From an uncultured Methanobrevibacter sp. (lineage in GTDB: Archaea; Methanobacteriota; Methanobacteria; Methanobacteriales; Methanobacteriaceae): a stretch of 64,000 nucleotides of DNA. Of this stretch, positions 7,226 to 29,402 are shown one piece after another. The first letter of the stretch is position 1. Every line of letters starts with the position of its first letter. The stretch lies in NCBI RefSeq assembly GCF_902801725.1, contig NZ_CADCJB010000003.1:1-64000 (forward strand), given 5' to 3'. The notes beneath the pieces were generated by a model, which did not search any database, was not told the origin of the DNA, and saw only the letters and a program-made list of their open reading frames with translations. A program made the translations under genes and the position numbers.

Positions 7226-8803
7226 TTAATATACCTTTTTTACATCTGACGGTTTGATAATGATATTTTTTCTTCTGTATCTTACAGAGATGTCGTCACC
7301 GTTTATTGCATAAACCTGGCTGGAATAGGTTTCTCCCTGATGATTGAAAATGATTTCATCACCTTTCTTAAGGACAACTTCATTATTGTTTAACTTTATT
7401 TTTATATTGTCTCTTGAAGGTTTTTCCTTAATTGCAGGTATTACTTTTTCTTCCTTATGTTCAGGTTTTGGAGCTGTTTCTTTTATGCTAAATACATTTT
7501 GTGAATTTCTCTGTCTTAATGAGTCATCCATCTCAGCCCTATGATACTCTTCATATGTTGCTTCATAATCTGCATGAGTTTCATTGATGATTGGTACAAA
7601 TTCATCTTCGTATTCGTTGACGTTTCTGATGAAATCCTCTTCAATGACATCTTCTTCAACAGGTGGCTCTGATATGAGCTTTTCCTTAACGTCCTGGAAT
7701 ATTTTTGAACCTTTAATTGTGTTTGTAATTTTAGCCAAATCTTTTCTGTAGTCCAAATCACTGTCATAGTCGCCAAATACATTTTCATCCTTGAGATCTG
7801 CTCCGAATTTGTAATCGTCTTTGACTTTTGTTGGAGTTTTAAGTATCGGTTCTTTTATGACTTCCTCTGTTTTTTCACTTTCTGTATTGTTAAGCAAAGC
7901 ATCAGTAATGTCTGTACTTTCGGAAATGCTTTCTTCGGTTTCTTCACTTTCTTCGCCGGCGGTGGTTATTGCCTCTTCAATGTCTTGTGAAGTAACTGTT
8001 GATGCTTCGAGTTTTGGTTCTTCTTCAACGGTTTTGGTAATTGTATCGCTTGCATTTTCCTTTTTGGTTGTTTCAGGGATTGCATCGCTTACCTTTTCCT
8101 CTTTAACAGGTTCTTTAACAGCATCTTTCTGTTCATCTTCATCTTCAGATTCATTGATGATGCTTCTGATTGTTTCTTCAGGCATTTCGTCAATAATCTC
8201 TTCAATGTTTTTCTCTTCTTGCTTTTGTTTGATGCTTTCTTTAAGTTCTTCTAATTCTTTGTCTTCATCATCATTTTTATGTGCTTCTTTTTCTCTTTCA
8301 CTATCTTTTCTTTTTGATTCTTTAATAAGTTCATCAATAGTGAATAAATCTTTTAACTCATGTTTTTCATTTTTAGGGTTGTTACTTTGGCTCATAATAT
8401 CCATCTGGCTTTGTTTAATTGGTTCTTGAAATTTTTCAACGGTATTACCATAATCCACAAGTACTTGATTTTGTGATTCGTATTCAATATTATTGTAATT
8501 AGCATTATTAACTTCTGAAACAACAGGTTCTTCATATATTTCATTGAATGAAGGTTGTTTGTTTAGGCTAGCAGGTTTAGATTGATTAAGAGTAGCTGGT
8601 TGATTGGAATTGGATTTATCTCCATTATTGGATAGAATATTTTTTCCTGCTGAAACTAGGTTACTTAAGGATCCTGTATCTTCAAGTATTGATCCATCAT
8701 CTTTCTCTAATTCTTCTCCTTTATAGTGCAATTTAACTAGTATTATTGCAATAATTGCTATAATGGCTATTGTAATCCAAATTATTATTGTTATTCCATT
8801 CAT
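7226..8803 (-). CDS. Membrane-anchored acidic protein with C-terminal SH3/KOW-like domain
   Basis: A 525-residue protein. Residues about 5-25 (IIIWITIAIIAIIAIILVKL) are a membrane anchor with no signal cleavage site. They are followed by an about 400-residue low-complexity stretch very rich in Glu, Asp, Lys and Ser, with coiled-coil tendency around ESKRKDSEREKEAHKN and EELKESIKQKQEEK. The last about 60 residues form a compact basic beta domain (KKGDEIIFNHQG, VYAINGDDISVRYR, IIKPSDVKKVY) resembling an SH3 or KOW barrel. The architecture suggests a tether that displays a small binding domain away from the membrane. No known family recognised. Confidence 0.7.
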   Translation of the reverse strand: MNGITIIIWITIAIIAIIAIILVKLHYKGEELEKDDGSILEDTGSLSNLVSAGKNILSNNGDKSNSNQPATLNQSKPASLNKQPSFNEIYEEPVVSEVNNANYNNIEYESQNQVLVDYGNTVEKFQEPIKQSQMDIMSQSNNPKNEKHELKDLFTIDELIKESKRKDSEREKEAHKNDDEDKELEELKESIKQKQEEKNIEEIIDEMPEETIRSIINESEDEDEQKDAVKEPVKEEKVSDAIPETTKKENASDTITKTVEEEPKLEASTVTSQDIEEAITTAGEESEETEESISESTDITDALLNNTESEKTEEVIKEPILKTPTKVKDDYKFGADLKDENVFGDYDSDLDYRKDLAKITNTIKGSKIFQDVKEKLISEPPVEEDVIEEDFIRNVNEYEDEFVPIINETHADYEATYEEYHRAEMDDSLRQRNSQNVFSIKETAPKPEHKEEKVIPAIKEKPSRDNIKIKLNNNEVVLKKGDEIIFNHQGETYSSQVYAINGDDISVRYRRKNIIIKPSDVKKVY

Positions 8804-8947
8804 TCTACCAACTTCTTTTATTAATTTTTAGTATTTTATATTTATGTAAACAAGTTAATTTAAATATTTTCATATTTGGGGTTCTATCAATATCATTATG
8901 AAATAAAATTTTTACTATTTTTCAATGATAATTATACTAATCATTCA

Positions 8948-8958
8948 TTTTATATATT
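8948..8958 (+). promoter_or_regulatory. TATA box of the dapL operon
   Basis: TTTTATATATT matches the methanogen box A consensus and lies about 50 bases before the dapL ATG. That allows transcription to start near 8980 and leaves a short leader containing ATGAGGTTTA just before the start codon. Confidence 0.55.
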
Positions 8959-9003
8959 GAAAAAATAAAATATATATTAGATTAATATTTATGAGGTTTA
9001 ATC

Positions 9004-10239
9004 ATGGTTGTTAAAATTAATGAAAACTATCTTAAGTTAAAAAGTAGCTACCTTTTCGTTGAAGTGGCAAGAAGAGAATCAGAATTCAGGAAAGCAAACC
9101 CTGATGCAGATATCATCAAAATGGGTATCGGAGATGTTACAAAACCTTTAGTTCCTGCAGTCATTGAAGCATTCCATTCTGCTGTGGACGATTTGGGAAA
9201 TGGTGAAACATTTGTGGGATATGGTCCTGAACAAGGCCATGACTTTTTAGCTAAAACTATTATTGAAAATGACTACACTGCACGTGGAATTGATTTGGAC
9301 ACTTCCGAAGTTTTCATAAGCGACGGAGCAAAAAGCGACACAGCTAACATACAGGAAATCTTTGGAATAGACAATAAAATCGCTGTAACTGACCCTGTAT
9401 ATACTGTATATGTGGACACAAATGTTATGGCTGGAAGAACTGGAGAAATGAAGGACGATGGTATGTATGAAGGATTAACTTACATCAAATGTAATTCAGA
9501 AAACGGTTTTGTTCCTGAACTTCCATCAGAACCAGTAGATATTATTTATTTATGTTATCCTAATAACCCAACAGGCACTACCCTTACAAAAGATCAATTG
9601 AAAGTATTCGTTGATTATGCCAAGGAAAATAAATCAATAATTTTATTTGATGCTGCTTACGAAGCATTCATAACTGAAGATAATGTTCCTCATTCCATTT
9701 ATGAAATAGAAGGTGCAAAAGAAGTAGCTATTGAATTTAAGAGTTTTTCCAAAACTGCTGGTTTTACCGGAACTCGTTGTGCATACACTGTTGTTCCTAA
9801 GGAATTGATGGGATACGACAGTCAGGGCAATGCAGTTGAAATCAATCCGTTATGGAATAGAAGACAAACCACTAAATTTAACGGTGCATCCTATCCTGTT
9901 CAAAAGGCTGCCGAAGCGGTTTATTCTCCTGAAGGTAAAAAACAAATCAGGGACACCATCGATTATTATATGGAAAATGCTAAAATCATCAGGGAAAGCC
10001 TAACTGACCTTGGCCTTGATGTATATGGCGGTGTAAGCTCCCCTTATATTTGGGTAAAAACTCCTAATGATATGGATTCATGGGCATTCTTTGATTTATT
10101 ATTAAACGAAGCCAATGTAATTGGAACTCCAGGTTCCGGATTTGGTCCAAGCGGTGAAGGATATTTAAGATTAACTGCATTCAATACTTTGGAAAACACT
10201 AAAGAAGCAATGGATAGAATTTCAAAATTAGAATTTTAG
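9004..10239 (+). CDS. dapL: LL-diaminopimelate aminotransferase
   Basis: A 411-residue PLP enzyme, full length for the DapL family. It converts tetrahydrodipicolinate directly to LL-diaminopimelate with glutamate as donor, the lysine route used by Methanobacteriales. The N-terminal [11 protein letters not shown], the PNNPTGTTL substrate-cofactor loop and the lysine in [12 protein letters not shown] (Schiff base) are all present. The C-terminal domain carries [16 protein letters not shown]. It is the first gene of a four-gene plus-strand run; the next gene begins about 9 bases after the stop. Confidence 0.97.
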
Positions 10240-20762: not shown

Positions 20763-20851
20763 TTTTATGGGCTGAGGGATTATATTTTTGAATTTGCCTT
20801 CTGTATGATTTTTCCTGATATTTTTAAAAATATTTATATAACATAAGTTAT

Positions 20852-20885
20852 ATAACAATAGTTATCATAATATAACTATTGTGAT
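20852..20885. promoter_or_regulatory. Tandem palindromic operator before the amidotransferase operon
   Basis: Two copies of an ATAAC-N4-GTTAT-type palindrome, ATAACAATAGTTAT at 20852-20865 and ATAACTATTGTGAT at 20872-20885, are spaced 20 bases centre to centre. Together they also form an 11-bp inverted repeat around CATAAT. A TATA box (TTTATATA, 20833-20840) lies just upstream, so a bound protein would cover the transcription start. This suggests repression. The same 14-mer recurs at 27586, with a variant at 28335. Confidence 0.6.
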
Positions 20886-20908: not shown

Positions 20909-21706
20909 ATGTGTGAAATTTTTTGTTTTAATTCAAATACGCCAAAACAAGTTAATGAATGTTTAGAATGTTTTTATAATCACTCTGAGGAACATCCGCA
21001 CGGATGGGGATTGGCTAATATGCACTCTAATGAATTTGTTATAGATAAAGAGCCTATAAAAGCAACATGTAGCCAACACCTTAAAAATATATTGTCCCAT
21101 CCTGTTGTTGGGAAAAATGTATTCGCTCATATTAGATTGGCTACCATGGGTGAAATTATATCTCCCAATTGTCATCCGTTTACGGAAGCTGATGATAATA
21201 ACAGATCCTGGATGTTAATCCATAACGGTACTATCTTTGATTATCCACCACTTAATCAATATGCTGAGAAGGGGGATGGAAGTACTGATTCCGAGCGAAT
21301 ACTTTTATATATAATTGATGAAGTCAATCAATTTGAAAAGGAAAATGGGAGATTATCAACTATCAAGGAACGTTTCAATTTATTATACGAAATTGTATCT
21401 GATTTATCTAAAAATAATAAACTTAATCTGATGATTTATGACGGTGATTTAACTTACATTCACTCCAACATGAGGGACTCCCTGTATTATCTTAAAAGTG
21501 ATGAAAGCTTTTTAGTCGCTTCCAATCCTCTGACGGATGATGAAAATTGGATGCCTGTTGAATTGAATAAGCTATTTGGTTTGATTGATGGAAATATCAT
21601 TTTCGAAAGTGAAGAACATGACAATGAATTCATATTAACTCCAGAACATGAAAAAATTATAGAAGAATTCTTAAAATCAATAAATCGGGATGATATTAAT
21701 GATTAA
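20909..21706 (+). CDS. Class II glutamine amidotransferase
   Basis: A 265-residue Ntn-type amidotransferase. After Met removal the catalytic Cys is residue 2 (MCEIFCF). HPHGWGLANM, AHIRLATMGE, NCHPF and the HNGTIFDY loop are the conserved glutamine-site elements. It belongs to the YafJ/EgtC-like single-domain group rather than to a biosynthetic synthase, so it may hydrolyse or transfer the gamma-glutamyl amide of a small molecule. It is followed, with an 8-base overlap, by a GCS2-type ligase and then a GshA-type ligase, which supports a role in gamma-glutamyl thiol metabolism. GGGAGGATAAT precedes the ATG. Confidence 0.88.
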   Translation: MCEIFCFNSNTPKQVNECLECFYNHSEEHPHGWGLANMHSNEFVIDKEPIKATCSQHLKNILSHPVVGKNVFAHIRLATMGEIISPNCHPFTEADDNNRSWMLIHNGTIFDYPPLNQYAEKGDGSTDSERILLYIIDEVNQFEKENGRLSTIKERFNLLYEIVSDLSKNNKLNLMIYDGDLTYIHSNMRDSLYYLKSDESFLVASNPLTDDENWMPVELNKLFGLIDGNIIFESEEHDNEFILTPEHEKIIEEFLKSINRDDIND

Positions 21707-23099
21707 TGATGAAGTAATAAAAAATAGGTTGTTTGAGGAGTTTATAAAGCCGACAAGTCAAAAGAAGAACTATGTTGGTATAGAAATTGAAATTCCGATT
21801 ATCAATCTCGACAAAAAGGCTGTTGATTTTAATGTAGTTCACAAAATCACTGACAGATTTCATAAGCATTTCAATGATTTTGAAAGAGACGGAATAGATT
21901 ATGAAGGGAATGTGTTTTCACTGAAAAATCCTAAAACTGACGATATTGTTTGTTATGATTGCTCATATAATAATATAGAATTTGCTATGGGTCGTGAAAC
22001 TGAGTTGTTTACTATCAATAAACGTTTTTGCGAGTATTATGAATTTACAAAAGAGTCTTTTGAGGAATTTAATCATACTTTAACTGGAATGGGAATCAAT
22101 CCACACAGAAAGTACAATAATCATATTCCAATTCCTTCAGAGAGATATCTGATGCTTTATCATCATCTAAAATCTTTCAAAAACTATGATGACATTCAAT
22201 TTCCATTTCATGACTACCCTGAATACGGAATGTTTTCGTCAGCTTCCCAGGTTCAATTAGACGTTTATAGGGATAATCTGGTAAAAACCATAAATGTATT
22301 TTCCAAAATCGAACCGATTAAAGCATTATTATTTTCTAATTCTGTCCTGTTCGAAGAAAATAAACATTTGACATGCTTTAGGGACATTTTATGGGAGTAC
22401 TCAACTCATGGTGTAAATCCTCATAACATTGGGATGTATGATGTGGATTTCAAGAATATCAAAGACCTTCAGGCATATCTTGAATCCCTAAATATGTACT
22501 GCGTAATGCGCGACGGAGCATATATCAGTTTTCCGTCAATCAATATTCTAGATTATTTCGGTCAGGAAAATATTCGCGGAGATGTCTATTGCAATGGAGA
22601 ATACAAAAATGTTGACATAAATCCTTCAATTGATGATATTGAATATTTAAGACCGTTCAAATTCATCAATTTGACATTCCGGGGGACCGTTGAATTTAGA
22701 AGTGTATGCACCCAACCTATCAGGGATTCAATGTCAGTTGCGGCATTTCATTTGGGCCTTAAGGATAAGCTTGATGAACTGAGCAATCTGATTTCAGATG
22801 ATGAGGTTATTTATCATAAGGGATATACTGCAAGCGAACTTAGAAAACTATTCATTCAGGATGAACTTCCTGCATTTGTTGATAAAAAGGATTTATGTAG
22901 ATTATGCAAAGATGTTGTGGATTTGGCATCAAGCGGACTTGAAGAAAGAGGAATCGGTGAGGAAATATTTTTAAAACCGTTGTATGCCCGTATTAAAAAA
23001 CATACAAATCCAGGAAAGGACCTGATTGATGCATTAAATCAAAATATAAACCTGGAAAAACTTATTGAAGACTATGGCAAACCTTGCAAGGTCTATTGA
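21699..23099 (+). CDS. Glutamate-cysteine ligase family protein (GCS2 type)
   Basis: A 466-residue ATP-grasp-related ligase of the GCS2 (plant/actinobacterial EgtA-like) superfamily. The metal and ATP site residues lie in YVGIEIEIPI near the N-terminus, GRETELFTI follows, then the substrate segment FSSASQVQLDVY around residue 185-195 and RGTVEFRSVCTQPI near 330. The likely reaction is ATP-dependent joining of glutamate through its side chain to an amine such as cysteine. The ATG at 21699 is chosen because CGGGATGAT precedes it; an ATG nine bases upstream is the alternative. Overlaps the amidotransferase by 8 bases. Confidence 0.82.
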   Translation: MINDEVIKNRLFEEFIKPTSQKKNYVGIEIEIPIINLDKKAVDFNVVHKITDRFHKHFNDFERDGIDYEGNVFSLKNPKTDDIVCYDCSYNNIEFAMGRETELFTINKRFCEYYEFTKESFEEFNHTLTGMGINPHRKYNNHIPIPSERYLMLYHHLKSFKNYDDIQFPFHDYPEYGMFSSASQVQLDVYRDNLVKTINVFSKIEPIKALLFSNSVLFEENKHLTCFRDILWEYSTHGVNPHNIGMYDVDFKNIKDLQAYLESLNMYCVMRDGAYISFPSINILDYFGQENIRGDVYCNGEYKNVDINPSIDDIEYLRPFKFINLTFRGTVEFRSVCTQPIRDSMSVAAFHLGLKDKLDELSNLISDDEVIYHKGYTASELRKLFIQDELPAFVDKKDLCRLCKDVVDLASSGLEERGIGEEIFLKPLYARIKKHTNPGKDLIDALNQNINLEKLIEDYGKPCKVY

Positions 23100-23108
23100 G
23101 GTGATTAA

Positions 23109-24497
23109 ATGAATTTATCATATTTATCTAAATTATCTCCTGATGACATATTGTCAGGATTATTTGGGATAGAATGGGAGTCGTTAAGAGCTAAAGGCGA
23201 TGGCAAATTATCTTTAACCCCTCATCCTGAAGTATTTGGAGATAAACTAACTAATCCATTGGTAACCACCGACTTTTCTGAAAGTCAAATAGAAATAATA
23301 ACTCCAACATTCGACACAATCGACGATGCCTTTGGCGCGTTTTCACTGATATCCGATTTGGTAAACGTGTCTCTTCCTGATGATGAATATCTTTGGTTTC
23401 AATCAATTCCATGTATTTTGCCTTATTGGGATCAAATTCCAATAGCTCAATACTCAGAAGAAGGCAAATCATCACAAAAATATCGTGAAGACTTGGCTAA
23501 GAAATATGGGGTTAAAAAACAGATGATTTCTGGAGTCCACTTTAACTTTTCATTTTCAGACAGTCTGTTGAAAAAGTTATATGAATTTGAAAATGCAGAT
23601 TTGAGCTTTAGGGAGTTTAAGGACAATGTTTATTTGAAAATTGCGAGAAACTATCTTAGATATTGCTGGCTAATTATTTATTTGACAGGTTGTTCGATAG
23701 GTTCTCATAAAACATTTTCCAATGATTGCATTCATTTGATGGATGCTAAGGATAACTATGGTAGTTATTATTCGACCAGAGGCCCTTCATTTAGAAACGC
23801 TTCTTGCGGATATAAAAATTTAAAAGAGTTATATCCATCTTATGCCTCTGTTGATGGCTTTGTAGAGGATATCAACAATTTTATAGAAAGTGGAGATTTG
23901 TCTGAAGCCAAGGAGCTGTACACTCAAATCAGGCTCAAACCAAAAAATCCTAAAGATGTATTGAATTCTTTAAAAAAAGATGGAATTGATTATATTGAAA
24001 TAAGAACTTTGGATATTAATCCATTTTATAAATGTGGTCTTGTAAAACGTGATATGAAGTTTTTACATTTATTTTTAATATATCTCCTCATTAAAGGAGA
24101 ATCTGACTATGTTGGCTGGCAGAGAGAAGCCAAAATAAATGAAGAAAACACTGCCGAATGTGCTTATGTTGAATCAATGAGATTAATTAGGGACGGTCAG
24201 AAAGTAACTATTGAAAGTTGGGCAAATGAAATTATAAACGAGATGTATATAATGTGTGATGTATTGGGAATTGATGACGACCACACTTTAAATTTAATGC
24301 TTAATCGTATTTTAAATCCTGATTTGACCTATGGAAAAAGGCTTTTAAAATTAATTAGGGAAAATGGTTATATCAATACTCATATTGCTCTGTCTAAAAA
24401 TAATAAGCAGACCAGTATCAGCAGTCTGAAAAACATTGATTTGGCTGAGTGTGACAACGTTAAGAAATACGCAAGCATTGCATTGATTGGAAAATGA
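23109..24497 (+). CDS. gshA: Gamma-glutamylcysteine ligase, GshA type
   Basis: A 462-residue protein that follows the bacterial type-1 glutamate-cysteine ligase along its length. It has GIEWESLR (metal site), LTPHPEVFGDKL, TTDFSESQIEIITP, IPIAQYSEEGKSSQKYR, ISGVHFNFSF, STRGPSFRNASCGY and DYIEIRTLDINPF. These match the glutamate, ATP and cysteine binding elements of E. coli GshA, though the protein is about 55 residues shorter. It should make gamma-glutamylcysteine, the first step of glutathione-like thiols. It lies 9 bases after the GCS2-type gene, behind TTGAGGTGATTAA. A GshA of bacterial type is unexpected in a methanogen and suggests acquisition from bacteria. Confidence 0.88.
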   Translation: MNLSYLSKLSPDDILSGLFGIEWESLRAKGDGKLSLTPHPEVFGDKLTNPLVTTDFSESQIEIITPTFDTIDDAFGAFSLISDLVNVSLPDDEYLWFQSIPCILPYWDQIPIAQYSEEGKSSQKYREDLAKKYGVKKQMISGVHFNFSFSDSLLKKLYEFENADLSFREFKDNVYLKIARNYLRYCWLIIYLTGCSIGSHKTFSNDCIHLMDAKDNYGSYYSTRGPSFRNASCGYKNLKELYPSYASVDGFVEDINNFIESGDLSEAKELYTQIRLKPKNPKDVLNSLKKDGIDYIEIRTLDINPFYKCGLVKRDMKFLHLFLIYLLIKGESDYVGWQREAKINEENTAECAYVESMRLIRDGQKVTIESWANEIINEMYIMCDVLGIDDDHTLNLMLNRILNPDLTYGKRLLKLIRENGYINTHIALSKNNKQTSISSLKNIDLAECDNVKKYASIALIGK

Positions 24498-24532
24498 ACT
24501 GCTTTTTCTAATTTGAATTGGAGGATGATAAA

Positions 24533-25363
24533 TTGGAATTTTTAAGACAAACTGATGTTATTCAATGGAAGGATGGTGAGTATAGAACAATTAAGGAAAA
24601 CAGTGTGGATGATGAATATACATATCTGTTCATTGATTACTTGCCTCCCCGTAAATTTTCAACATATCCAAAGGATTTGGAGGATTTTGCAGTAGGATAC
24701 TGTCTTGGAGAGGGATTGATAAAAAATTACTCTGATATTGAATCTATCAAGCTGGACGGAACAAATGTTCTGGTTTCCACAAACTTAAATCATGATCCTG
24801 AAGAGGACTTGGAACAGGAAGGCATAGTTCAGGAGAGAAAGGGAAACTGTGAACATGCTTGTGTATGCAGATTATTGGAGTATCAGGGAGTAAATTCTGA
24901 TAATGCAGGAGGAATAAGATCAGAATTAAAAACAATAGAATCCAATAATTCAGATTTAAAAATCAATGCGACTCAAATTATTAAAGATATCAAACATTTG
25001 ACAGATGAGGCGAAAATTTGGCAGAAAACGGCTGGGGTTCATGTTGCTCAGCTAAAATTTGAAGACCAAATAATCATTCGTGAAGATGTCAGCCGTCATG
25101 TTGCAGTTGATAAGGTGATAGGGGCTGCTTCAAGGGAGGGCTATGATTTTTCTAAATGTTACATTTCATATAGTGGAAGAATGCCTGCTGATATGTTAAT
25201 TAAAGTGATACGGGTTGGAATCCCAATCATTATTTCAAATGCTGCCCCTGCTTCATCAGGTATTGACGTTGCGCGTGCAGGCAATATCACAATGATTGGT
25301 TTTGTAAGGGATAGTAGATTTACAATTTACACTGCTCCAGAGCGTGTAGATTTACAAAAGTAA
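24533..25363 (+). CDS. fdhD: FdhD-type formate dehydrogenase sulfurtransferase
   Basis: A 276-residue FdhD-family protein. FdhD moves sulfur from a cysteine desulfurase to the Mo/W-pterin of formate dehydrogenase. Recognisable parts are LPPRKFSTYP, DFAVGYCLGEG, AGVHVAQL, RHVAVDKVIGAA, SYSGRMPADM and the C-terminal APASSGIDVA...GFVRDSRFTIY. The sulfur-carrying loop is unusual: NCEHACVC (CX3CXC) in place of the common CX2C. The TTG at 24533 behind GGAGGATGATAAA is chosen over an in-frame TTG at 24518. It lies 35 bases after gshA, so it may share its transcript. Methanobrevibacter grows on formate, which fits. Confidence 0.9.
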   Translation: MEFLRQTDVIQWKDGEYRTIKENSVDDEYTYLFIDYLPPRKFSTYPKDLEDFAVGYCLGEGLIKNYSDIESIKLDGTNVLVSTNLNHDPEEDLEQEGIVQERKGNCEHACVCRLLEYQGVNSDNAGGIRSELKTIESNNSDLKINATQIIKDIKHLTDEAKIWQKTAGVHVAQLKFEDQIIIREDVSRHVAVDKVIGAASREGYDFSKCYISYSGRMPADMLIKVIRVGIPIIISNAAPASSGIDVARAGNITMIGFVRDSRFTIYTAPERVDLQK

Positions 25364-25696: not shown

Positions 25697-25718
25697 ATAG
25701 ATGCTTTTCGCATCTATT
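25696..25718. terminator. Shared hairpin terminator between convergent genes
   Basis: AATAGATGC-TTTTC-GCATCTATT forms a perfect 9-bp stem with a 5-base loop. It touches the stop codons of the small gene on plus and the ThiF-like gene on minus, so it can end both transcripts. Confidence 0.65.
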
Positions 25719-26472
25719 AAATTTCATCTAAACTGAATGAGCTCAAATCGAGCAAGTCAAATGTTAAAATTTTTGGAGCAACAGTAACTTTTCCAACTCC
25801 AGTTATTATTTTATAAGCTTCAAATGCTTCAAGACATCCAATTAAGTTTGGTGTTGGTCCAATAACCGGCGGAACTCCTGATGTCACATTTTTCAATGCA
25901 TCAATGACATCATCATCTAGTTTTTTACTTAATGATGGTAGATTAAACATTTCTTCATATGTTTTTTCGCTGTTTGGTAGGAATACGGTAATCTGCCCCA
26001 TTGTTCCATGAATTGCTCCATGAATGTATGGAATTCCAATTTCTTTTGCTTTTCTAGAAACGATAACTCTTGTCAGGACATTATCAAGTGCGTCGATTAC
26101 AATATCTGAGTCACCAATGACCTTGTCAATGTTAGTTTGATCGATATGTTCATTAAAAATGGTTGTTTTTACATAGGGATTTATTAATCTGACTTTTTCA
26201 GCTGCAACACTGCTTTTTTCAAGACCTAAATCGGCAATTGAAGCTAATGTCTGTCTGTTTAAATTGGACAAATCGAATGCATCTTTATCAACTAAAACCA
26301 GTTCTCCGATTCCCATTCTTGCAAGCATTTCAATGGTTTCTCCACCAATTCCTCCACAGCCAATAACTGTTACTTTTGCATCTTTAAATCTTTCCTGCTC
26401 ACTTCTTGTAACTATACTCATTTGACGGGAAGCTATTTCCCAGTATCCATCACCTATGTATCTTGTTGGCAT
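25717..26472 (-). CDS. ThiF/MoeB/HesA-family adenylyltransferase
   Basis: A 251-residue E1-like enzyme. The nucleotide site VIGCGGIGGETIEML and the downstream acidic and Arg elements (LVLVDKDAFDLSNLNRQ), then DALDN, are all present, so it should adenylate the C-terminus of a small ubiquitin-like sulfur carrier such as ThiS or MoaD. The CX2C zinc pairs of MoeB are missing and only two cysteines remain, one in the P-loop and one in LIGCLEAFEAY. It lies 8 bases after the LarE-like gene on the same strand, which points to a joint sulfur-transfer job. Confidence 0.88.
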   Translation of the reverse strand: MPTRYIGDGYWEIASRQMSIVTRSEQERFKDAKVTVIGCGGIGGETIEMLARMGIGELVLVDKDAFDLSNLNRQTLASIADLGLEKSSVAAEKVRLINPYVKTTIFNEHIDQTNIDKVIGDSDIVIDALDNVLTRVIVSRKAKEIGIPYIHGAIHGTMGQITVFLPNSEKTYEEMFNLPSLSKKLDDDVIDALKNVTSGVPPVIGPTPNLIGCLEAFEAYKIITGVGKVTVAPKILTFDLLDLSSFSLDEI

Positions 26473-26480
26473 TTTTTCAC

Positions 26481-27491
26481 CTAAATATTTCTTCTTAGTT
26501 TTTGCAATATTTCCATAAATGTATCTAGCGCTATTTCTTTTGTTTTTAAATTGTTTCCTTCTATTAATCCAGTTTCAAAAATAGTAATGTTGTCTAATAC
26601 TATTTTTTCATCGGTTATTGAATTGATCTTGCCAGTAATCTGTCTTGAAGTCTCTTCGAGATTGATGGTGAACGGAAGCTGATATGAAAATGAGCCCTCA
26701 TTATAATCAATATTAATGAACTCGTCATCATCAATTTGCGATAAATTTAATGCAATCTTTCTATAACCTTTGCCTTTTAATTCATCGTTGATTTGTCTGA
26801 ATTTGTCATTGGATAAAATTTCGTCAATGTCATCAACTTCAATAATACCAATTTCTCCAAAGTCTCTAACTTTCACTATTTTGCAGTCAGTAGTATCTAA
26901 AATATAGTCTTCTGATTGACTTATCCTTTCGATTTTTTCCTTATTTGTTTTGGTATTTGTAGGAATTCTTGTTGCAAGGCATGTAGTCGATTTTGAATAT
27001 GGGATGTTGTTTTTATCAAGATATTCATGAATTTCCTTGGATGTTAATTTTGCTTTAATCAGGGGTGTTTCAAACCTTTGTTTATAGGTAATCAGGATTC
27101 CTGGCCTGTCATTAACAAGATCACTAATGTTGTTTCCATCGCAGATATAATCAAAACCTTTTTTTAGGGCAGTACTCTTTATCTGTGAATACATCATGTC
27201 ACGGCAGGTATAACATCTGCTTGGAGAATTCTGAAGAAATTCCTGGTCTTCATAAAAATTAATATCGATAATCTCATGTTTTATTCCAAAAGAATCGCAC
27301 ATGCTTTTGGTGTGGCTGATAAAATCGGTTGGCATTAAGTGATTATCAATAGTAATAGCTATTGTGTCTTTTGCAACTTCTGAAGATAAATATGCCATTA
27401 ATGTTGAATCGGCACCACCTGAAAATCCGATGGCTACTTTTTTATCTTTTAAAAGACTTTTGACAATATTGATTTTATCTTCCAAGTTCAT
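26481..27491 (-). CDS. larE: LarE-like ATP-dependent sulfur transferase
   Basis: A 336-residue PP-loop ATPase of the LarE family. The P-loop is GFSGGADSTLMAYL, the second signature is SPSRCYTCRDMM, then DGNNISDLVNDRPG, and TTCLATRIP holds the cysteine that in LarE donates sulfur or binds a cluster. LarE converts carboxylates of a pyridinium cofactor to thiocarboxylates; whether this protein serves nickel-pincer cofactor synthesis or another sulfuration is open, since no LarB or LarC is in the window. The last about 75 residues are an extra C-terminal extension. AAGGGATAAT precedes the ATG. A palindromic operator lies about 95 bases upstream. Confidence 0.85.
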   Translation of the reverse strand: MNLEDKINIVKSLLKDKKVAIGFSGGADSTLMAYLSSEVAKDTIAITIDNHLMPTDFISHTKSMCDSFGIKHEIIDINFYEDQEFLQNSPSRCYTCRDMMYSQIKSTALKKGFDYICDGNNISDLVNDRPGILITYKQRFETPLIKAKLTSKEIHEYLDKNNIPYSKSTTCLATRIPTNTKTNKEKIERISQSEDYILDTTDCKIVKVRDFGEIGIIEVDDIDEILSNDKFRQINDELKGKGYRKIALNLSQIDDDEFINIDYNEGSFSYQLPFTINLEETSRQITGKINSITDEKIVLDNITIFETGLIEGNNLKTKEIALDTFMEILQKLRRNI

Positions 27492-27585: not shown

Positions 27586-27599
27586 ATAACAATAGTTAT
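27586..27599. promoter_or_regulatory. Palindromic site upstream of the LarE-ThiF pair
   Basis: ATAACAATAGTTAT is identical to the site at 20852-20865. Reading on the minus strand, a TATA-like ATTTATA lies about 22 bases upstream (27621-27627), so the site could overlap the transcription start of the larE-thiF transcript. Confidence 0.55.
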
Positions 27600-27654: not shown

Positions 27655-28269
27655 TTATTTTTGGGCAATTACAACTAAAATATAATCGTTTTCTTTTTTA
27701 AAGCTATTCACGCTACTAAAACCAGCATTCAATAGATATTTTTCAAGTTGGGCAGAAGTATAAACACTCATGCCCTCAACAGAAGCCAACCACTTTTCAT
27801 CATCAGGGTGGTTGCCGTCAGTTCCCTGAGCAATCATGAATTGTCCATTTGTTTTAATAATTCTTAAAACTTCTTTAAACGTATTTCCAATATCTGGCCA
27901 AAAGTATATTGTTTCAAATGCGGAAACCAAATCATAACTTTCATTTTCTATAGGCATATCGCTGACATCCGCTTGAATGATGCGGCATCTTCCTTTTTCA
28001 ACTGAACTCTTGTTTCTTTTTAGTGATTCAGCAACTGAAATTTCTGAATAATCAAGTCCATCGACATTTTTGTCGGTTAACTTGAGGAACTTCTCGATAT
28101 TTACTCCTCCTCCGCATCCAATATCAAGTATTTTATCGTTTTTTGTGATGGTGATGCATTGAAATGCAAATTCGGAAATTTCTTTGTGGTTCTCATTCAT
28201 GTTTTTGATGGTTTGAATACCTTCCTCGCCATGAGGTTTCATACATTGATCAATTTTTTTAGCTACCAT
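27655..28269 (-). CDS. Class I SAM-dependent methyltransferase
   Basis: A 204-residue methyltransferase with ILDIGCGGG (motif I), VDGLDYSE (motif II acid), IQADVSDMP and YDLVSAFETIYFWPDI (post-I and motif IV). It resembles UbiE/COQ5-type small-molecule methyltransferases; the substrate is not known. AAGGTTGAAACA precedes the ATG. It is divergent from the substrate-binding protein gene, and the shared 160-base region contains a palindromic site, so both may be controlled together. Confidence 0.88.
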   Translation of the reverse strand: MVAKKIDQCMKPHGEEGIQTIKNMNENHKEISEFAFQCITITKNDKILDIGCGGGVNIEKFLKLTDKNVDGLDYSEISVAESLKRNKSSVEKGRCRIIQADVSDMPIENESYDLVSAFETIYFWPDIGNTFKEVLRIIKTNGQFMIAQGTDGNHPDDEKWLASVEGMSVYTSAQLEKYLLNAGFSSVNSFKKENDYILVVIAQK

Positions 28270-28334: not shown

Positions 28335-28348
28335 ATAACAATTGTTAA
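28335..28348. promoter_or_regulatory. Palindromic site between divergent methyltransferase and SBP genes
   Basis: ATAACAATTGTTAA matches the ATAAC-N4-GTTAT palindrome of 20852 and 27586 in 12 of 14 positions. It lies between the two TATA-like boxes of the divergent genes, about 15-17 bases from each, which is suited to controlling both. Confidence 0.5.
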
Positions 28349-28430: not shown

Positions 28431-29402
28431 ATGAATAAAAAAATAGCATTTGTTTTAGTGTTAGCACTTGCAGCATGTTTAGTTATGGGTGCAGCCAGTG
28501 CAGGTTTCTTCGATTTTTTAGGTGGAGGAAATGACACTGTAAAGATAGGATATTTACCTTCTGACCATGATGCTGCATTATTTGTAGCTGATAAGCAAGG
28601 TTTATATGAGAAAAAAGGAATTAAAACTGAACTTGTTCAGTTTAATAATGGTGGAGACTTAATGACTGCTATGGCTAGTGGTGAAGTCGATGTTGGATAT
28701 GTTGGAATCGCTCCGGTATTGTCTTCCGTTGCAAAAGGAGTTCCTGTAAAAGTTATTTCTTCTGCTCAAACTGAGGGTAGTGGAATTGTTGTAACTAAAG
28801 ATTCTGGAATTACTTCTGCAGCTGATTTAAAAGGCAAATCAATAGCAACTCCTGGTGAAGCTTCTATTCAATATGTTCTTCTTTCATATTACTTGGACAA
28901 AAACGGTTTATCTACTAAAGATTTAAACATTTCAGCAATGAAAGTTCCATCTATGAATGACGCTTTAAAAACCAAACAAATTGACGGTATTATTACTTTC
29001 CAACCTTATGTAAGTATCGCAGCAAATGATACCAATAATGTTGTTTTAGAAAACTCATCCGAAATTTTACCAAACCACCCATGTTGTGTGGTTGTTGCAT
29101 CTGACGACTTCATTAAAAACCATGAAAACGAAACTAAAGATATCATTGCAATTCATAAAAACGCAACTAATTTCATCAATGATAAAATTAAAGAGGGCAA
29201 TTCCTCTGAAGTTGTAAAACTCTTGCCTGAAGATATTGTTGCTAATTCTGATTTGGAAACTAATTCATTACAAAGTTTCCCATTCATTTCTGGTCTTAAT
29301 GATACCTTCAAAGCAGATGTGGATTCATTCCAAAATCTTGAAGTAAAAGTAGGTATTTTAAACAGTACTGTTTCAAAAGATAAATTGTACTGGCCGGCAT
29401 AG
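28431..29402 (+). CDS. NitT/TauT-family ABC substrate-binding protein
   Basis: A 323-residue secreted binding protein. The signal segment has basic MNKKIA, a hydrophobic core containing LAAC (a possible lipobox) and an ASA cleavage site. The mature part shows the SsuA/TauA/NMT1 pattern: KIGYLPSDHDAALFVADKQGLYEKKGI, TAMASGEVDVGYVGIAPVL, ADLKGKSIATPGEAS and IDGIITFQPYVSIA. Such proteins capture nitrate, sulfonates, taurine, thiamin precursors or similar small ligands. No permease or ATPase gene lies next to it, so it must share a transporter encoded elsewhere. GGTGATT precedes the ATG. The regulatory palindrome suggests co-regulation with the sulfur genes upstream. Confidence 0.85.
   Translation: MNKKIAFVLVLALAACLVMGAASAGFFDFLGGGNDTVKIGYLPSDHDAALFVADKQGLYEKKGIKTELVQFNNGGDLMTAMASGEVDVGYVGIAPVLSSVAKGVPVKVISSAQTEGSGIVVTKDSGITSAADLKGKSIATPGEASIQYVLLSYYLDKNGLSTKDLNISAMKVPSMNDALKTKQIDGIITFQPYVSIAANDTNNVVLENSSEILPNHPCCVVVASDDFIKNHENETKDIIAIHKNATNFINDKIKEGNSSEVVKLLPEDIVANSDLETNSLQSFPFISGLNDTFKADVDSFQNLEVKVGILNSTVSKDKLYWPA

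Follow-up and report, generated by a model that had tools for sequence, protein, structure and literature searches.

The thiols of methanogens are usually accounted for by coenzyme M and coenzyme B. In other organisms, gamma-glutamyl thiols are handled by a ligase together with a hydrolase of the class II amidotransferase fold, as with EgtA and EgtC in ergothioneine synthesis and Dug3 in yeast glutathione degradation; the amidotransferase-like protein described below (GAT) is presumably homologous to Dug3. For methanogens, the available text of a 2020 review (PMC7278568) lists homologues of the glutamate-cysteine ligase GshA with the ligase domain only in Methanosphaera stadtmanae (Msp_0528) and in Methanobrevibacter including M. 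ruminantium M1, and it proposes gamma-glutamylcysteine as a methanogen thiol. A 1985 survey cited there reported gamma-glutamylcysteine and glutathione to be absent in five unidentified methanogens, which counts against a thiol module of the kind proposed here. The reviewed proteins belong to the same protein family, and to the same archaeal family, as the GshA analysed in the present work. The occurrence of GshA in a methanogen, which headed the first-pass annotation of this DNA, had already been published for both Methanobrevibacter and Methanosphaera. The available text of the review mentions no GCS2 partner, amidotransferase or operator along with GshA, and the open-licence literature gave no description of a GAT-GCS2-GshA cassette or its putative operator. 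What is new relative to the searchable literature is this cassette with its divergent ligase and the shared palindromic putative operator.

The window, that is the whole stretch of 64,000 nucleotides analysed (contig NZ_CADCJB010000003.1 of an uncultured Methanobrevibacter sp.), carries the following features.

20838..20885, no strand, putative operator array 5' of GAT: ATAACATAAGTTAT (20838), ATAACAATAGTTAT (20852), ATAACTATTGTGAT (20872)
20909..21706, + strand, GAT: class II glutamine amidotransferase-like Ntn hydrolase, EgtC/YafJ-like, with predicted Cys2 nucleophile
21690..23099, + strand, GCS2-type ligase: divergent protein of the glutamate-cysteine ligase superfamily
23109..24497, + strand, GshA: type-1 glutamate-cysteine ligase of GshF descent, lacking the glutathione synthetase domain
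24518..25363, + strand, FdhD sulfurtransferase (TIGR00129, E 1e-58), 20 bp 3' of GshA
25717..26472, - strand, ThiF/MoeB-like protein, in the downstream neighbourhood of the cassette
26481..27491, - strand, LarE sulfur transferase (TIGR00268, above cut-off)
27586..27599, no strand, putative operator site 5' of LarE
27655..28269, - strand, methyltransferase gene
28335..28348, no strand, putative operator site ATAACAATTGTTAA, between the methyltransferase and sulfonate-binding protein genes
28431..29402, + strand, SsuA-family aliphatic sulfonate substrate-binding protein (TIGR01728, 178 bits, cut-off 163.5)

Conservation and descent of GshA

The gene had been placed at 23109-24497, and an open reading frame of 462 aa with an ATG start and no internal stop codon was found there. 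The protein belongs to the Pfam family PF04262 (Glu_cys_ligase; E 9.6e-89, 298 bits against a cut-off of 27). Its best profile was the N-terminal half of the bifunctional GshF (E 2.8e-118), and the solved structures it matched were of GshAB/GshA, including 3ln7 and 3ln6. Both TTDFSESQIEIITP and DYIEIRTLDINPF are present in the protein. The earlier statement that every segment of type-1 GshA is retained is in accordance with these results. Twelve positions of the E. coli enzyme, comprising metal and glutamate ligands and the cysteine pocket (E27, E29, D60, E67, Y131, L135, H150, R235, Y241, Y300, E328 and R330; roles as we take them to be), are identical in the window GshA and in 39/39 archaeal copies, so that no loss of catalytic residues was seen. 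Judged by its sequence, the window GshA is catalytically intact. The dN/dS values between the window and its nearest relative were ~0.10 for GshA, ~0.08 for GCS2 and ~0.07 for GAT, and such values of about 0.1 or lower indicate purifying selection on all three genes. A second GshA copy, 72% identical and adjoining a NifX-like gene (locus L005), lies elsewhere in the source genome.

The C-terminal ATP-grasp glutathione synthetase domain of GshF is absent from GshA, the protein stopping at 462 aa with a score below the PRK02471 cut-off. Searches for the C-terminal counterpart of GshF gave only short partial or generic ATP-grasp matches in the Methanobacteriaceae genomes and none in the source genome, where a GSH-S_ATP search also had no match. 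Glutathione as the product was rejected on these searches.

Phylogenetic analysis placed the archaeal GshA sequences in a single clade (support 100/100) nested inside the N-terminal halves of bacterial GshF. The sister of this clade was the GshF of Ligilactobacillus salivarius (99/97), and proteobacterial GshA stood apart; the bacterial sequences in this tree were a small sample of plasmid-borne genes. The identity of GshA was 47% to Ilyobacter GshF and 44% to that of L. salivarius. On this tree GshA is bacterial in origin, as the label 'bacterial-type' had suggested. The converse idea of a vertically inherited archaeal clade holds in so far as one clade was inherited within Methanobacteriaceae, but fails in that this clade sits within the bacterial GshF sequences. 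The parsimonious reading is that one gshF-type gene would have been transferred into an ancestor of Methanobrevibacter and Methanosphaera, followed by loss of the synthetase half and then by inheritance with losses.

The second ligase, the amidotransferase and their linkage

The adjoining gene had been described as a second member of a glutamate-cysteine ligase family. A second ligase in tandem was indeed found, but it is a distant GCS2 member that lies below the cut-offs. The window protein reached E 1.7e-11 and 43 bits with TIGR01436, whose equivalog cut-off is 463. It had no match in Pfam, staying under the curated score of PF04107 (the GCS2 family), a profile that matched 3/38 GCS2 members with a best E of 0.0036. 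In the reverse direction, a profile built from GCS2 found plant glutamate-cysteine ligases (1.2e-13), and the structure model (pLDDT 85.6) had the plant enzyme 2gwc as its top PDB match (TM 0.75/0.80, 18% identity). The metal/glutamate motif residues E32, E34, E97, Q187, E335 and R337 were invariant in 38 diverse sequences. Within the phylum sample GCS2 was restricted to 78 genomes of Methanobacteriaceae, the only match outside the family being a spurious one of 40 residues, and a search of bacterial plasmids gave none. GCS2 is predicted to be a second ligase, independently evolved, of the same superfamily as GshA, with cysteine or a closely related sulfur amino acid, for instance homocysteine, as the most likely acceptor.

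GAT matched PF13230 (E 2.7e-31) and has the N-terminal Cys, the Arg, the Asn-Gly oxyanion hole and the glutamate-binding Asp of class II glutamine amidotransferases; the residues M1-C2, R76, N106-G107 and D127 were invariant in 27/27 GAT sequences. The nearest PDB structures to its model (pLDDT 90.6) were EgtC with bound glutamine (4zfk) and 1te5. The closeness of this fold to EgtC brings in a protecting-group route as in ergothioneine synthesis, where GCS2 and GshA would add gamma-glutamate, another enzyme would modify the product, and GAT would then remove the glutamate to give an unknown thiol. EgtC is the hydrolase of just such a pathway, EgtA is likewise a glutamate-cysteine ligase, and an unassigned methyltransferase gene and sulfur-transfer genes are often near the cassette. 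However, the operon holds no EgtB-like or EgtD-like gene, the conserved cassette neighbourhood holds no ergothioneine genes, and the neighbours shuffle while GAT and the ligases alone stay together. The score of GAT with the EgtC profile TIGR03442 was 67.5 bits against an equivalog cut-off of 218.65. Taken together, such a route is considered unlikely.

The operon has the order GAT, GCS2, GshA, so that the two ligases are led by an EgtC/YafJ-like amidotransferase as first proposed. The 3' end of GAT overlaps GCS2 by 17 bp and GCS2 ends 9 bp before GshA; the median gaps in the fetched loci, a redundant set, were -17 bp for GAT-GCS2 and +10 bp for GCS2-GshA. Among 139 Methanobacteriaceae genomes, many of them metagenome bins, GCS2 was present in 78, GshA in 84 and GAT orthologues in 81. 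A GAT orthologue was counted as a strong match, which leaves aside the remote class II amidotransferases of G157 and G162 and the GAT pseudogene of G097. GAT was accompanied by at least one ligase in 81/81 genomes (both in 72, GCS2 alone in 4, GshA alone in 5), and ligases without GAT were seen in 9 genomes. Neither these counts nor the Fisher p values, such as 2e-19 for GCS2 with GshA, allow for shared ancestry. At the level of loci, GAT-GCS2 without GshA was found at L131, L132 and L114, and GAT-GshA without GCS2 at L141, L142, L119, L144, L158 and L159, while G089 and G078 each have both kinds, as two separate loci. This pairing of GAT with either ligase alone argues that GAT acts on the products of either, and argues against GCS2 needing GshA. 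The same pairing, and the absence of any genome with GAT but no ligase, add weight to the suggestion that a gamma-glutamyl bond is formed and subsequently removed.

The linkage data also bear on two other functions. GAT might be a glutaminase subunit feeding ammonia to GCS2, which would then form an amide (as in an amidated thiol peptide, for instance) and not a peptide bond. Such ammonia supply is classic for class II amidotransferases, and GAT with GCS2 is the tightest pair, with the 17-bp overlap and GAT in 76/78 GCS2 genomes. The several genomes pairing GAT with GshA alone speak against it, as GshA-type ligases take cysteine and not ammonia, and so does the hydrolase nature of EgtC, the nearest solved homologue of GAT; we regard this function as quite improbable. 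The other is that GCS2 acts after GshA and extends gamma-glutamylcysteine as a substitute for glutathione synthetase. The conserved GCS2-GshA gene order and the lack of an evident glutathione synthetase in the searches given above would fit, but GAT-GCS2 is kept in genomes without GshA, including the 99% complete G036, and the glutamate-cysteine ligase superfamily activates the gamma-carboxyl of free glutamate. This order of action is very unlikely.

The presence of the cassette is patchy. It is often missing in close relatives, and G033, which we take to be M. smithii, has none. By similar assumption G147 is taken as M. stadtmanae, G079 as M. ruminantium M1, G013 as M. millerae SM9 and the genus g26 as Methanosphaera. 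In G154 the genes of CysK and homocysteine synthase adjoin GAT-GCS2. Some individual loci showed further features. At L163 (G097:C55) the GAT beside GshA has decayed to a pseudogene with stop codons, GshA still being open. In L185 (G079), positions 7649-9021, a frameshift splits GCS2 between intact GAT and GshA, and is either a real lesion or a sequencing error. The 6526-bp contig C11 of G066 (L117) has an exact 77-bp direct repeat at its ends and closes into a circle containing GAT-GCS2-GshA and two more genes, which points either to a cycle in the assembly graph (tandem copy) or to a small element that is circular. On a Lactiplantibacillus plantarum plasmid (L183, 1435-3653) a stand-alone glutamate-cysteine ligase-like gene is directly followed by a gene of the gamma-glutamyl-GABA hydrolase family, a possible bacterial parallel of the ligase/hydrolase pairing.

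The palindromic putative operator and neighbouring genes

The palindrome ATAAC-N4-GTTAT was analysed as a putative operator. Allowing at most one mismatch, ATAACAATTGTTAT occurred 3 times in the window, before GAT, before LarE and at 28335, compared to 0.06 expected from shuffles. The equivalent site was found 5' of GAT in 48/66 non-redundant loci (~1.3 expected). In a comparison of genes from other loci, the palindrome stood 5' of GAT (47/65), SsuA-like (17/24), FdhD (13/25) and LarE (8/15) genes, against 22/739 for other ORFs. In G093 and G013 the palindrome precedes the genes for cysteine synthase (CysK), O-acetylhomoserine sulfhydrylase, SufC, ThiI, YcaO-McrA thioamidation and MoaE, as well as ThiF, FdhD and a NifD-like gene, and in the cassette-free G033 it precedes an SsuA-like gene. 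The unlinked GshA genes of Methanosphaera carry TAACA-(A/T)1-2-TGTTA at -44 to -50 in 10/10 cases, a pattern found in 0.08% of shuffled upstream regions, and the second GshA of the source genome has ATAACGCAAGTTAT at -40. The enrichment is thus seen both 5' of the cassette and 5' of functionally related unlinked genes, as for an operator shared by a regulon. The palindrome marks a candidate archaeal sulfur regulon that takes in the cassette, a feature absent from the first-pass annotation, and the gene of the window for the sulfonate-binding protein is predicted to belong to the same regulon. FdhD, ThiF, LarE, the methyltransferase and the sulfonate-binding protein were rejected as cassette members; their genes shuffle among loci, the position of FdhD relative to the cassette being variable, though the putative operator is common to them. 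As a separate observation, exact copies of the palindrome stand in front of a nitrogenase component 1-like protein (PF00148) at L223, 536-2209 on the - strand, possibly a nitrogenase-like reductase freeing sulfur.

Most Methanosphaera GAT-GCS2 pairs are without this palindrome and stand beside peroxidase, flavodoxin, Sir2 and macrodomain genes, which points to oxidative stress and not to sulfur storage. The cassette might accordingly serve against peroxide or disulfide stress, its thiol being chiefly the reductant for glutathione peroxidase-like enzymes in oxygen-exposed gut archaea. Peroxidase is present in 71/84 GshA genomes (Fisher p 3e-15, shared ancestry ignored), and the order Sir2-CDF-GPx-flavodoxin-GAT(-GCS2) recurs in Methanosphaera. 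However, the Cys in the EACRLNFLVEYPIF segment, presumably the resolving Cys of thioredoxin-dependent peroxidases, is kept in 20/20 peroxidases checked, so that a small thiol is not required. The Methanobrevibacter peroxidase is unlinked and has the palindrome in 0/18 cases, and ten genomes have peroxidase without GshA. A stress function of this kind is judged rather unlikely. Peroxidase as an obligatory partner of the cassette was weakened by the resolving-type cysteine and the absent palindrome. In the Methanosphaera loci L129, L115, L127, L136, L155-L157, L164 and L165 a conserved operon comprises genes for GNAT, macrodomain, Sir2, cation efflux, glutathione peroxidase (one or two copies), flavodoxin and GAT, often also for GCS2, and it resembles oxidative-stress-linked sirtuin/macrodomain operons.

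A proposed gamma-glutamyl thiol module and the known systems

In the reading preferred here, to which we give a probability of about 0.6, the cassette belongs to a sulfur/thiol regulon and both synthesizes and releases a gamma-glutamyl thiol, with gamma-glutamylcysteine as the likeliest compound. GshA would use ATP to join glutamate and cysteine to gamma-glutamylcysteine, and GCS2 would be a second ligase for cysteine or a closely related sulfur amino acid, so that the ligases could store cysteine or a close analogue in gamma-glutamyl form. Since no glutathione synthetase partner was found, the product is proposed to stay as gamma-glutamylcysteine. GAT would then cleave the gamma-glutamyl bond, thereby returning cysteine and glutamate. 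The palindrome would tie the operon and the unlinked GshA to genes of cysteine synthesis, Fe-S assembly, thiolation and sulfonate binding, and by this tie the module would buffer cysteine. The presence of ligase and hydrolase in one operon carries the risk of a futile cycle unless it is controlled. A more specific form of this proposal is a three-enzyme gamma-glutamyl thiol cycle, with two ligase families, one of them new, and a releasing hydrolase, serving gut methanogens as a regulated cysteine reserve within an undescribed archaeal ATAAC-N4-GTTAT sulfur regulon; this form is put forward tentatively, at a little less than even odds.

If the proposal is true, methanogens also keep a glutamyl-thiol pool beside the thiols of coenzyme M and B. 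With the cassette, its patchy presence and the palindrome, this can be tested directly in cultured species, M. millerae or M. stadtmanae for example. The palindrome would also provide a starting point for studying how rumen methane producers control sulfur, among others at the genes for thioamidation of methyl-coenzyme M reductase, for Fe-S assembly and for tRNA thiolation.

Compared with the known systems, the archaeal GshA shares sequence family and catalytic residues with the N-terminal ligase half of bifunctional GshF (GshAB), whereas the glutathione synthetase half of GshF is missing from it and was not found elsewhere in the genomes. GCS2 has the fold and the active-site motifs of the plant/proteobacterial ligase (TIGR01436, 2gwc) but differs from it by its 18% identity, its scores below the Pfam and NCBIfam cut-offs and its restriction to Methanobacteriaceae within the phylum. 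EgtC is the closest solved structure to GAT, although GAT scores below the EgtC cut-off and its operon has no ergothioneine genes. Haloferax GshA is just 15% identical to that of E. coli, and in the available text of the review no cassette like GAT-GCS2-GshA is described for it (PMC7278568). The haloarchaeal GshA system (HVO_1668) is nevertheless the parallel within archaea, being likewise one of gamma-glutamylcysteine without glutathione.
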